Assembly (NCBI RefSeq): GCF_020623625.1
Contig: NC_060201.1
Span: forward strand, 558,001-622,000
Length of the DNA: 64,000 nt
Source of the DNA: Saccharomycodes ludwigii
Lineage: Eukaryota; Ascomycota; Saccharomycetes; Saccharomycodales; Saccharomycodaceae
Reading direction: 5' to 3'
Position numbers and translations under genes: made by a program. Shown here piece by piece: positions 11,424 through 50,442 of this stretch. Within the stretch, counting starts at the first letter, position 1; every line of letters begins with the position of its first letter. The notes below the pieces were generated by a model. That model was not told the DNA's origin. It worked only from the letters and a program-made list of their open reading frames with translations, and ran no database searches.

Positions 11424-11550
11424 GAAGCGGTGGCTCAATGGTAGAGCTTTCGACTCCAGTTAAATCAATTGGTTTCGGCCTTAAAACACCAGTATTATGG
11501 CGTTGACAAGTGCAATCGAAGGGTTGCAGGTTCAATTCCTGTCCGTTTCA
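11424..11550 (+). tRNA. tRNA-Trp (CCA anticodon) with 55-nt intron
   Basis: Exon 1 is 11424-11459 and exon 2 is 11515-11550, giving a 72-nt mature tRNA. The intron at 11460-11514 begins one base after the anticodon CCA, the fixed eukaryotic position. The acceptor strands GAAGCGG and CCGTTTC pair, the A box is TGGCTCAATGG, and the B box GGTTCAATTCC is intact. Exon sequence matches yeast tRNA-Trp almost throughout. The intron is longer than the 34 nt I recall for S. cerevisiae. A T7 terminator follows at 11551-11557. Confidence 0.96.
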
Positions 11551-46097: not shown

Positions 46098-46967
46098 TCA
46101 CTGTTGTCTCTTAGTTTCTGCAGCATCTTTATCACTACTACCACTAGTATTACCCTTCACTAGGTTGCGAGTATATTGAGAAACTAATAAATCAAATCTT
46201 TCAATATAGGCCTTCAATCTAGTATAAGCCATCTTGATTTTAATATTGACGTTTGGTGAGCTCAAAACACCGTCTAATCTAACTACCCAATGTCTTATAC
46301 TGTCTTGCATAAAAATAGAGCCATGATATCTGGTTCTAATAAACAAAATGTAAGCAATTAAAACAATCCATGATCTAGGTCTCCAAAGCAAAGCACGGAA
46401 AAAAACGGAAAATAAACAGGCCAATTCTAAATTAGCACTGTAGATCATACTCCTTTCTTGGTTCGTAACTAAAAAGGAGTTAATTTTCGAAATTATTGGT
46501 AGGTTTGGATTAAACACTTGTGGAAGTAAAATTGATTTCAAATAAGTTAGTGAATGAAACAAAGAGAATATAAAAAATGGCAAGCAGCCAATCACATTAA
46601 CTGGTGTTAACAGCCATAAAATAGCCATTATAAAATATGGGAAATTGACATCTGAAATTAAGCCTTGTATGTTATTGGAAATACCGGCAGCACCACGACG
46701 AGTTGAGAAATGACATTGGTACAATTGAACACCAAACGATACCAACACGCCAACATAGAATAAGTTGTATAAAAATTGAGGGAAACCGTTTAAATTGTAA
46801 AAGATAAAAGATAAAAATGTAGTGAAATGGCCAACAAACCAGGCAAATTGGGTCGTTTTTGTTAATAAAATTAATCTTTGGAATGGAGTAGTAGTAATTC
46901 TACTGGCATTTGCAGAAGCGTGGGTGTTTTTATTTTGTGGTGTATTAGTCCTTGAGGTACTTGACAT
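46098..46967 (-). CDS. POM33: POM33/PER33 (TMEM33 family) nuclear pore and ER membrane protein
   Basis: Integral membrane protein of the nuclear envelope and ER that helps new nuclear pore assembly. It has 289 residues with several hydrophobic segments: about 40-60, 64-82, 110-150 as two helices, and 180-215. A conserved-looking stretch ERSMIYSANLELACLFSVFF and an amphipathic C-terminal region follow, the latter with RTRYHGSIFMQDSIRHWVVR; in Pom33 this part binds membranes and Kap123. Position between SSA and HIF1 matches YLL023C, so POM33 is preferred over its S. cerevisiae paralogue PER33. Confidence 0.88.
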   Translation of the reverse strand: MSSTSRTNTPQNKNTHASANASRITTTPFQRLILLTKTTQFAWFVGHFTTFLSFIFYNLNGFPQFLYNLFYVGVLVSFGVQLYQCHFSTRRGAAGISNNIQGLISDVNFPYFIMAILWLLTPVNVIGCLPFFIFSLFHSLTYLKSILLPQVFNPNLPIISKINSFLVTNQERSMIYSANLELACLFSVFFRALLWRPRSWIVLIAYILFIRTRYHGSIFMQDSIRHWVVRLDGVLSSPNVNIKIKMAYTRLKAYIERFDLLVSQYTRNLVKGNTSGSSDKDAAETKRQQ

Positions 46968-47658
46968 TGTTAATTTCCAGTTATTGTTGATGTTGGATAT
47001 ATGGAGGAGGAAATAAAATAGATATTTTTTTGAGTTTTATAGTAAACAAATATCTTGAGATTGGATATGATAGCAATCGGAAAGAAGAAGAGAAAAAGGT
47101 TAAAGGTTAAAGGATGTGAGCAACAATTAGCAATGTAGAAGCATAAAAGAAAAAGTTTTTTTTTTTTCTCCTTTAATACTTTATATATATGTAGCATAAA
47201 ATTGCTATTGTTAAGTATATTTCAAATACGCAGGTAATAATTAATATGGAAAAGGGAAAAGAAAAAAGGAAAAAAAAACAAAAAAACAAAAAATTTTCTT
47301 GAAGGTTAAAAAATGAAAAAAAGAAAACAGAAAACAGAAAAAAAAAAAAATTGACATATAAAAAAGATCAAAGCAGCAAGGTGGCAAAGAAGGTGATAGA
47401 AAAAATGTCAACAAATTTACCGATATTATGTGCATTTTTAATAAGAGGCTCATACCAAGTACAAAAAGAAAAAAAATTAAAAATTAAATTCACAAATAAC
47501 GCCTAAATCTCACCATATTTCTAACTGTTTTTTTACCATCATTTCTTTCTCTCTGTTATCTTCTTTTTTATCTTTTTAATAAATCCTTACAAGTACACAA
47601 TGTTAAATTTGAAAAAAGTGCTGTACCCACCTTCCTTAATCACATTTTTTTTTTTTTT
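46968..47658. other. intergenic POM33-HIF1
   Basis: 691 bp of AT-rich sequence with A-rich tracts near 47261-47350 on the plus strand. A 70-codon minus-strand frame there is poly-Phe low complexity and rejected. No gene is supported. Confidence 0.5.
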
Positions 47659-48792
47659 CTACTTTTTAGCCTTTTTTTGCGAATTGTCATCATTAGCACC
47701 GTTTCCTGCCGGTCTTTTCTTATTCTTTTTAACAACTATACTACTCAAATCATGCACATTTGCATGGCTGCTATTGACAGTACTATGACTGGTAACAGCG
47801 CCTCCAGACAATAAGCTCTTCATCATTTCTATTTGTTGATTTTCCATATTAGCATTTAATTTTATAGATTCTTTGGTTTCCTTTAATTTGGTTTCTAAGT
47901 CCTGTAGTAATGAACTATCACCTTCCTCACTTTTACCTTGGTCGATTCTATCTTTTAATAACTTAATAGCAATGCCTAAATTCTTTTCGCAATCTGGTCC
48001 TCTTTTCGGTTGAAATTCATATGATAATGATAATTTGTAATAAGATTCAATTATTAATCTGTTGGTAGGATCTTTTCTATCCTTATTGTTTTCAAAGTAC
48101 TGTTTCCTATAATTTAATGATTGTTCAAAATCAATTGAAGCCTGTTCAAAGTTTTCATTTTCTAAAGAGATTTCCCCTAAAATGTCATGAACTTCGGACA
48201 ATCTTAATATTATATCAGAACTAGATTGCAAAGGTTCTTTTTTTAGCCTGTTTTCATATAATTTACGAGAAACTTCTAAAACATCCCAAGCATTTTCAAA
48301 ATCATTTTGAAGATCTTCATATTCTTGTTTATTATGCTTTTCTTTACTTTCTTCTTCTTCTTCTTCTTCTTCTTCTTCTTCTTCTTCTTCTTCTTTCTCT
48401 TCTTCTTCCTCTTTTTCTTTCTCTTCCCCTTGCTCTTCATCTTCCTCTATTTCAGTATCAAATTGAAACATCTTACTTTTTTTTTTGCAAACAGTACCAC
48501 TTTCTTCACGTAACCCTTCTTCATCAACTTCATTCTCTTCTCCATCGAGATCAACACCAGGGTTACCTCCAAATATATCTGAATTATCCAATGCAAGTTG
48601 AAACAAACTTTTTCCATACAAAAACAAATAATCCGGACTATTTTCACCATTTAAGTCATAATACAACTCATTTAATTTTCCATAGTTTTCAACGCTCTTG
48701 TTGTAATCTTTATTTGCATAGTATTTACTGGCCTCAGTCAGCAAGTGGTTCAATTCCTTGGTGCTCTTGGTTTTAGTAGTACTGTCTGACAT
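47659..48792 (-). CDS. HIF1: histone chaperone Hif1 (NASP/SHNi-TPR family)
   Basis: Nuclear chaperone for H3-H4 that works with the Hat1-Hat2 acetyltransferase. The 377 residues (385 in S. cerevisiae) begin with a TPR-like unit, HLLTEASKYYANKDYNKSVENYGKL. A long Glu/Asp acidic tract at about 115-152 interrupts the TPRs, as in NASP proteins, and is encoded by a pure TTC/TTT-type run on the plus strand. The second TPR pair contains ILGEISLENENFEQASIDFE and SYYKLSLSYEFQ. A Lys-rich end (RPAGNGANDDNSQKKAKK) can act as a nuclear signal. Its place after POM33 matches YLL022C. Confidence 0.88.
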   Translation of the reverse strand: MSDSTTKTKSTKELNHLLTEASKYYANKDYNKSVENYGKLNELYYDLNGENSPDYLFLYGKSLFQLALDNSDIFGGNPGVDLDGEENEVDEEGLREESGTVCKKKSKMFQFDTEIEEDEEQGEEKEKEEEEEKEEEEEEEEEEEEEEESKEKHNKQEYEDLQNDFENAWDVLEVSRKLYENRLKKEPLQSSSDIILRLSEVHDILGEISLENENFEQASIDFEQSLNYRKQYFENNKDRKDPTNRLIIESYYKLSLSYEFQPKRGPDCEKNLGIAIKLLKDRIDQGKSEEGDSSLLQDLETKLKETKESIKLNANMENQQIEMMKSLLSGGAVTSHSTVNSSHANVHDLSSIVVKKNKKRPAGNGANDDNSQKKAKK

Positions 48793-49329
48793 TAAAATTC
48801 TACTATTATTCTGTTTTCTTTTACTTGCTTTTCTTCTTTCATATTATGAATTGGGAAATTGTCATATTGCTCATACGTAAAGCGTTGTTATGAAAAATAT
48901 TTTTTTTTTTTTTTTTTTTTTAGAAAGAAACAAATAAATAATAATAATAATGCCCTAAAAAACTAATTGTCATTTCTTTTCCGAGAAAAAAAAAAAAAAA
49001 AAAAAAAAAGCGTGTTAGTTTGTATGTTTTTGTCCCTTTTGAAACGTATAAAAAACTCAGTAAGAAAAAAAAAACTTGCTTTCTTCTTTATTCCCAATTC
49101 TTTTTATTTTTCTTTCCTCTGTTCTTTCCTTCCATCTTGGTGGTTGAAAAAAAAAAACAAAAGGGACAGGCATGTATTTGGAATAATGCTAAATCTCGCC
49201 ACTGTTGCCATTAGACATCTCAGTTAGTTTCATAGCTTTCTGAGATGCAATTATACACACATTTGAATAAGTCTATTCAATATATTTTGTGTTTAAAAGG
49301 TACTTATCGATGTATATGTCTATTTATTT
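48793..49329. other. HIF1 and RPR1 upstream region
   Basis: 537 bp with a T-run near 48900-48920 and an A-run near 48987-49009. I looked for a Pol III A box and B box in front of the RNase P RNA, as exist in the S. cerevisiae RPR1 leader, and found no B-box match (GGTTCGANTCC). An ATATATTTTG lies near 49279-49288. An 86-codon frame here lacks coding character. Confidence 0.5.
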
Positions 49330-49919
49330 GCTATAATGTTTCTACATTTTACCTGCTTACACAATCAATGTTTATATTTGCAGGTGGGAAATTCGGTGGA
49401 TCACTACGAAAACGCAATAGATGTTTTTCTAATTATTTTTTTTTTTGGAAAAAGTCTATTCACCTAGTCTCTTTTCAGAGCCTTATTTAGGTTCTGTTGG
49501 TTTTTTGATGACCTTTTTGAAATCAAGGGAAAAAAAAAATTTTTTTTTTTTTTTCATGAGGGCCAAATTTCTTTTTTCAAAAAAATTTAGAAAAAAGGAA
49601 GGAGGTTGAGATGTTTGCTGTGTAATAATATTGCATAGCAACCATCCTTCTTGGAAAGCTATTTGAGATTAATACACTAGGTATTCCCTTGAAGGGAGGA
49701 ATTTTTTTTTTTCGGAATGAAAGTCTGGATTTGCGCTGTTATAAGAAATATTTTATCTGGGGAAGTTAGTTTTTCAAACTAAACCCAATGGGATAGACAG
49801 CGGTTTAAAGTTTCGTTTGAGGTAAAGGATTTGTATATTCTTTATACTTCTATTGAGTGCAATTGTAGAAGGAGTGTTTAAATACTACTCTAACCCGATA
49901 CCGATTATCATTGTAGCAT
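49330..49919 (+). ncRNA. RPR1: RNase P RNA (RPR1)
   Basis: RNA subunit of nuclear RNase P, which cleaves tRNA 5' leaders. Conserved region I is AGGTGGGAAATTCGGTGGA (49382-49400). Region IV-like sequence TTGAGTGCAATTGTAG is at 49853-49868, and region V-like AACCCGATACCGATTA at 49892-49907; all closely match S. cerevisiae RPR1 as I recall it. Helix P1 forms between GCTATAATG (49330-49338) and CATTGTAGC (49909-49917). P4 forms between 49390-49397 and 49900-49906 with the universal bulged U (49392). ACCTGC and GCAGGT flank a hairpin before region I. Length is near 590 nt against 369 in S. cerevisiae, with expansions between regions I and IV. Internal runs of T11, T15 and T11 are unexpected for a Pol III gene. 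The ends are approximate. Confidence 0.9.
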
Positions 49920-50442
49920 TTAATTTTATACATACAGTATCTTTTAAATTGAAAATATACATCTTGCATGGGTTTATTGTGACGAAGAAAGGATTTCGTT
50001 GTTGGACTTTGACATACAGATTTTGTTCTGCTTTTGCACTTAGGTGTTTCAAAACTAAGCCTTGAGTAATTATTGTAATTTTAAGCCTGTTAAGCCTTTT
50101 TCTTTTCTTTTTTCTTTTTTCTTTTCTCGTTTGGATTTCAATTTGAATGCAATTAAGATCATCTTTTGTATTCTACATTCAATTCGTGTAGAGTGATTAT
50201 GATGATGTTAGTAAATTGTTATATCTATTAAGATTTTTTTTTTTTTTTTCTTTTCTTTTGTGGTTGTTACAACTTGATAATTTTTTTTTTTTTTTTTTTT
50301 TTTTAATAGTAAACAAACAGATTGATAAACCAAGCTCAATATTTAACCTCTTATAGATAAACAATTTTAAATTATTAAAATAGAAGGATAAGGAAAAAGA
50401 ACGAAAAACGGAAATAAAAAATAAAAAAAAAAAAAAGGAACC
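49918..50442. other. RPR1 3' flank and CDC3 promoter
   Basis: A short T4 follows the RNase P RNA at 49924-49927. Further on are a (TTTTC)n-like tract near 50099-50125 and T-runs near 50227-50240 and 50281-50304. The CDC3 leader is A-rich, with no ATG in the last 60 bases. No gene is supported. Confidence 0.5.

Follow-up and report, generated by a model that had tools for sequence, protein, structure and literature searches.

The RNase P RNA gene (RPR1) of Saccharomycodes ludwigii raises the question of which polymerase can read a gene that carries, inside its own boundaries, long runs of T. In the budding yeasts studied, RNase P RNA is as a rule encoded by a Pol III gene, and RPR1 has been described as such in S. 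cerevisiae (PMC5356446) and, by Rpc82 ChIP, in C. albicans (PMC2926782), both of which count against synthesis by Pol II. Pol III of S. cerevisiae is reported to terminate effectively at T7-T8, and read-through of T8 was not seen in wild-type S. pombe (PMC5356446). The earlier note on this DNA had left three options side by side, i.e. Pol II synthesis, read-through by Pol III, or synthesis of the RNA in several pieces. As far as sequence can tell, the first of these is now favoured by the promoter and by control genes of the same genome, and RPR1 is very probably a functional single-copy RNase P RNA gene whose control has passed from Pol III to Pol II.

The RNase P RNA gene and its internal T runs

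RPR1 extends, from P1 to P1, over positions 49329-49918 on the + strand of the window (the whole 64-kb stretch of DNA that was analysed, with 31.6% GC) and measures about 590 nt. A search with the Rfam model had been suggested for this locus, and RF00009 could be aligned to 49665-49901 with 28.0 bits, exactly its gathering score (28), which places the gene within the family; the match was missing from a scan of the whole window run at gathering level. In the genome (12,500,424 bases in 8 contigs) it is the sole RF00009 match, 15 of the 322 first-look candidates having been scored, and a DNA search with the conserved parts of RPR1 matched this locus alone. A second copy free of T runs, which the earlier note had envisaged as carrying the function in place of a silent one here, was found by neither search.

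P1, P4 with its bulged U and conserved regions I-V are all present (Table 1), the names of the five regions being those that we presume to apply, and regions II and III being positioned by eye. Regions I, IV and V and the P4 helix had been recognised before and are borne out, P4 being legible as 49390-49397 paired with 49900-49906; regions II and III are visible in addition. The P1 helix is also there, but it consists of 10 bp including one G-U pair (49329-49338 paired with 49909-49918) instead of the 9 bp first given. The RNA folds with a z-score of -5.7 and beats all 100 of 100 dinucleotide shuffles. The P3 region (49351-49386) seems short, with ACCTGC and GCAGGT around about 23 nt and without a clear distal stem; in S. 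cerevisiae the P3 region, which binds Pop6/Pop7, is about twice as long. The enlargement of the RNA, another point made earlier, is real when set against the 369 nt of the S. cerevisiae RNA. It is not extreme, though, the RNase P RNA of N. delphensis having 1368 nt (PMC3847288).

Table 1. Features of RPR1 and its surroundings (positions in the window)
Feature	Position	Strand	Basis or remark
ATGCCCTAAA, Tbf1-like element	48950..48959	+	once in 64-kb window
A24 tract between ATGCCCTAAA and TATA	48986..49009	+	sequence
TATAAAA, 95 bp past GCCCTA core	49047..49053	+	sequence scan
Pyrimidine-rich tract (90%), putatively just upstream of start site	49084..49133	+	composition
Putative 5' leader with hairpin 49216-49247; A/B box not above background	49139..49328	+	fold, weight matrix
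Conserved region I including P4 5' strand	49383..49399	+	sequence
T11	49436..49446	+	T-run scan
T15, right after A10 (49530-49539)	49540..49554	+	T-run scan
T11	49702..49712	+	T-run scan
Conserved region II	49740..49749	+	sequence, by eye
Conserved region III	49788..49803	+	sequence, by eye
Conserved region IV	49855..49869	+	RF00009 alignment
Conserved region V including P4 3' strand	49891..49906	+	sequence and RF00009 alignment
178 nt 3' of RPR1 without T run of at least 5	49919..50096	+	T-run scan

The gene holds eight internal runs of at least T5, which are, in order, T5, T11, T6, T5, T15, T6, T11 and T5. The three long runs lie exactly at the positions first reported, and all of them fall in the enlarged segment that separates region I from region II, so that their earlier placement between regions I and IV is true but can be narrowed; the five further runs of T5-T6 are at 49424, 49501, 49514, 49572 and 49770. 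Mononucleotide shuffles of RPR1 produced three runs of at least T11 in none of 2000 cases, one such run in 16 of 2000, and at least eight runs of at least T5 in 14 of 2000. Downstream of the gene, the first T run of at least 5 begins only at 50097. RPR1 therefore lacks the organisation of a Pol III gene of the RPR1/SCR1/U6 class, in which a T run closes the 3' end and the interior is free of such runs. As the assembly was made from PacBio reads and polished with Illumina reads (PMC8567612), the exact lengths of the long homopolymers may be off; we infer, all the same, that runs of T11-T15 cannot be assembly artefacts of short runs.

Controls were taken from the same genome, the polymerase class of all control genes being assigned by homology and recall. 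Among 65 tRNA genes in 63 loci (the best-scoring 63 of 914 candidates, mostly intronless), none has a T run of at least 5 in its body, and this holds for an intron-bearing tRNA as well. As a raw count, 63 of the 65 have a run of T5 or longer in the 60 nt that follow them, and tRNA genes of this genome end at T runs as short as T5-T7. In SCR1 (551 nt, 38% T) the longest internal run is T4 and a T10 follows the gene; because 7.4% of its mononucleotide shuffles are likewise without a T run of at least 5, the SCR1 comparison taken alone is only suggestive. U6 has T4 at most inside and T14 after the gene. A T run of at least 5 is found, on the other hand, in 9 of the 11 Pol II-type RNAs scored (MRP, two U3, snR82, snR57, snR55, snR61, snR66, snR189, U14 and snR71), the exceptions being snR55 and snR71; snR30 was omitted because the ends of its RNA are not defined. 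MRP and U3 are Pol II genes in yeast, and here MRP carries T5, T5 and T8, and the U3 Rfam spans carry T9 and T8. The two U3 genes have near-identical RNA and different upstream and intron sequences, and in each of them an A run is paired with a T run (T9 and T8), comparable to the A10/T15 of RPR1. Within the window itself, Rfam matched a tRNA gene at 11424-11550 whose anticodon region is interrupted by about 50 nt and which ARAGORN missed.

The upstream element and the layout of the promoter

Upstream of RPR1 lies the element ATGCCCTAAA, which is similar to the site recognised by the snoRNA promoter factor Tbf1. In C. albicans and S. cerevisiae, Tbf1 has been reported on snoRNA promoters, and its motif is given as ACCCTA (PMC2926782; PMC7277114). 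The genome encodes a TBF1 orthologue of 869 aa with TRF and Myb domains, whose best solved-structure match is TBF1 in the PDB (1.9e-32); binding of the factor at RPR1 can be presumed from this and from the motif. The element occurs 20 times in the genome, vs 9 copies of the reversed pattern, with 7 of the 20 copies within ORFs of at least 100 codons and 13 outside. When all 20 loci were searched with Rfam, the element was found upstream and in the same orientation in five cases, namely RPR1, MRP/snR66, snR57-55-61, snR189 and snR30, of which the snR30 match is weak (26.7 bits vs a gathering score of 80; E 0.0009). The motif was picked after it had been seen in this position and orientation at two promoters, those of RPR1 and MRP, and the snoRNA sample is small; without these two, 3 of 18 copies precede ncRNAs. 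The other 15 of the 20 precede no recognised ncRNA, one of them being antisense within snR82. Seven intergenic copies (L075, L077, L079, L081, L084, L085 and L092) may belong to unrecognised snoRNAs or to Tbf1-controlled protein genes; the 3 kb searched at each contained no Rfam snoRNA, and a tRNA is present at L085. For comparison, a scan of 20 tRNA-centred loci (61 kb in all; 20 of the 30 of this size) gave no Rfam snoRNA at E 0.05.

The GCCCTA core of the element is also present upstream of U3A, of U3B (twice) and of snR82. It is found within 300 bp upstream of none of the 65 tRNAs and nowhere within 700 bp of U6, and SCR1 has just an ACCCTA, beside a divergent ORF. Two snoRNA genes count against a snoRNA-type reading of RPR1, in that no GCCCTA occurs within 700 bp of U14 (one is at -973) or upstream of snR71; a family search for snR48 gave no match. 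The MRP RNA itself (L032, 1940-1501, minus strand) scored 27.7 bits, under the gathering score of 50, and snR66 (L032, 1293-1174, minus strand; 51.5 of 65 bits) lies downstream of it on the same strand, which is presumably the gene order of S. cerevisiae as well.

RPR1 shares not only the element but also its spacing, an RCCCTA element at 48950 being followed by a TATA at 49047 as in a Tbf1-type unit. From GCCCTA to TATA, RPR1 has 95 bp, and the corresponding distances at MRP, U3A, snR57-55-61, snR189 and snR30 range over 71-134 bp. The short spacing is not general, as the two elements of U3B are 203 and 272 bp from the TATA, and no TATAAAA-type box in sense orientation was found between the snR82 element and the start. 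In the window and 30 tRNA loci, which together make up 312,354 strand-bases, the element-TATA composite was counted 8 times, once as RPR1, and four of the other seven start within tRNA-Lys genes by position. Of the 11 ncRNA loci scanned, 3 also have the composite on the wrong strand. The leader hairpin of the RPR1 unit is present, but it was rejected as a processing site since the whole leader has a z-score of only -1.4 and 18 of 200 shuffles were as good. Nrd1/Nab3-like motifs 3' of RPR1 number 5 vs 4.5 in shuffles.

It could be that this promoter does not belong to RPR1. RPR1 is flanked on the left by a minus-strand HIF1-like SHNi-TPR gene (47659-48792) and on the right by a septin gene on the + strand from 50443. 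The element ATGCCCTAAA lies 158 bp from the HIF1-like ATG and could also serve that gene. One could thus assume that element and TATA are owned by the divergent gene or occur together by chance, and that RPR1 has another promoter, possibly still a Pol II one; the 15 genomic copies that precede no recognised ncRNA agree with this. The TATA and the 90% pyrimidine tract, however, face toward RPR1, and the element stands in the same orientation upstream of MRP and three snoRNA units. Only one + strand ORF of at least 80 codons starts between the promoter and 50443; it has 81 codons and overlaps RPR1. We regard this explanation as unlikely, though as the best of the alternatives, and since it is compatible with Pol II synthesis, its probability and that of the preferred reading are not mutually exclusive. 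As to the HIF1-like gene, a POM33-like gene adjoins it (window 46098-48792), a pair that we take to be comparable to YLL023C-YLL022C of S. cerevisiae.

Pol III signals and the remaining explanations

A Pol III gene of this kind would be expected to show a B box, and a B-box weight matrix was built from 65 tRNA B boxes of the genome. The tRNAs score 11.2-18.9 bits with this matrix, the site downstream of U6 12.3 bits and SCR1 9.9 bits, the last barely exceeding the 95th percentile of random window segments (9.0 bits; median 2.7). The best site in 49127-49400 reaches 1.7 bits, under the background median, and the best over the whole of 49000-50440 reaches 4.4 bits; RPR1 is therefore without a B box recognisable by the standard of the genome's own tRNAs, which confirms what the earlier note had said of the upstream region. 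The best A box near RPR1 (49225; 1.8 bits) is likewise under its background median of 3.6 bits, a score that says little because the A box of U6 itself scores just 3.3 bits. The U6 B box is located at L034 1761-1771, about 150 nt downstream of the gene, as in S. cerevisiae.

Another possibility is that Pol III still transcribes RPR1 and passes the internal T runs, with a promoter that is either driven by the TATA or not recognisable as such. Such a persistence of the arrangement described in S. cerevisiae (PMC5356446) and C. albicans (PMC2926782) might draw on the read-through reported for S. cerevisiae tRNA genes, which averages about 10% over the terminators, a value that counts against Pol II synthesis of RPR1, and exceeds 40% at some genes (PMC5356446). 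Read-through is also reported to drop as T length rises (PMC5356446), however, and the enzyme would have to pass T11, T15 and T11 and five shorter runs in series, in a genome whose tRNAs end at T5-T7 and avoid such runs internally in 65 of 65 cases; there is, besides, neither a B box nor a nearby 3' terminator. We therefore consider transcription by Pol III very improbable.

Still less credible is an RNA made or kept in pieces, either as Pol III fragments ending at the T runs or by removal of the T-rich expansion. The position of the three long T runs, all in the enlarged segment from region I to region II, would be in line with such a scheme, yet each downstream piece would need its own promoter, for which the 4.4-bit site is the best B box available. 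The unbroken RNA, moreover, folds well, with its two ends joined by P1, and no GTATGT or TACTAAC intron signals were seen by eye around RPR1. Next to no credence can be given to the idea of a defunct copy here and an ordinary RPR1 at another locus: the RF00009 score does no more than reach the threshold, but P1, P4 and the conserved regions are intact, and the model (15 of 322 candidates scored) and the DNA search each gave this one genomic match.

Comparison with known systems and the presumed change of polymerase

Synthesis by Pol II from an independent, snoRNA-type gene with a processed leader is accordingly the best reading of RPR1. Tbf1 would bind ATGCCCTAAA at 48950, and Pol II would start downstream of the TATA at 49047, probably at about 49135-49165, and read through the T runs inside the gene; a leader of about 165-195 nt and a 3' extension would then be removed to leave the P1-bounded RNA of about 590 nt. 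With the gene released from Pol III, internal T runs would have ceased to be harmful, and with selection against them ended, the mutation bias of the species toward AT may have let them accumulate in RPR1. This bias is described as strong in S. ludwigii (PMC8567612); the assembly of strain NBRC 1722 (12.5 Mb, 7 chromosomal scaffolds, N50 1,848,403 bp) has 30.9% GC (PMC8567612). It seems likely, with somewhat less assurance than for the change of polymerase as such, that this lineage independently moved RPR1 into a Tbf1-driven Pol II regulon of snoRNAs, MRP and U3, and that the Pol III terminators accumulated afterwards.

The elements of this proposal have counterparts elsewhere. Tbf1-dependent snoRNA promoters of yeasts have the same RCCCTA-type element and TATA before an independent Pol II ncRNA, and differ in that the product here is RNase P RNA and that Tbf1 binding at RPR1 is presumed from sequence. 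S. cerevisiae RPR1 is a homologous RNA that likewise has a precursor with a leader, but its gene is transcribed by Pol III, the A and B boxes being located in that leader (PMC5356446). The view expressed in the earlier note that Pol II synthesis of RNase P RNA is unknown in yeasts does not hold, as the K-RNA of RNase P in fission yeast, rrk1 (PMC1885965), has been described as transcribed by Pol II and as having a leader that can be cleaved off (PMC5982833; PMC7721064, both citing Jacobs et al. 2014). In the descriptions of rrk1 in these sources, neither a Tbf1-type element nor internal T runs are mentioned, in which the gene would differ from RPR1. Earlier reports of a Pol II RPR1 in Saccharomycotina, or literature on RPR1 of Hanseniaspora, were not found among the open-licence papers searched. 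S. pombe belongs to another subphylum than S. ludwigii.

The RNase P RNA of insects and crustaceans, e.g. Drosophila, is also made by Pol II, and in D. virilis the gene contains two poly-T stretches that were mutated before it was put under a Pol III promoter (PMC6797745). Two insect papers nevertheless give Pol III as the polymerase for the RNase P RNAs examined in organisms ranging from yeast to human (PMC4287351; PMC6797745). The insect and crustacean genes differ from RPR1 of S. ludwigii in being intronic in a protein gene, whereas RPR1 is a stand-alone unit; a host intron was considered for it and rejected on the same inspection for GTATGT and TACTAAC by eye.

If the proposal is true, S. 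ludwigii would add one more independent switch to those of S. pombe and of insects and crustaceans, here with an MRP/snoRNA-type promoter that stands alone, and would provide a natural case of an essential ncRNA that has changed its polymerase and hence its regulation and processing. The 5' processing of tRNAs would then be set by the ribosome-biogenesis programme, and the Pol III terminators filling the released gene would make the switch hard to reverse. The combination of internal T runs, no B box and an RCCCTA element provides a simple sequence test by which the switch could be dated within the Saccharomycodaceae.
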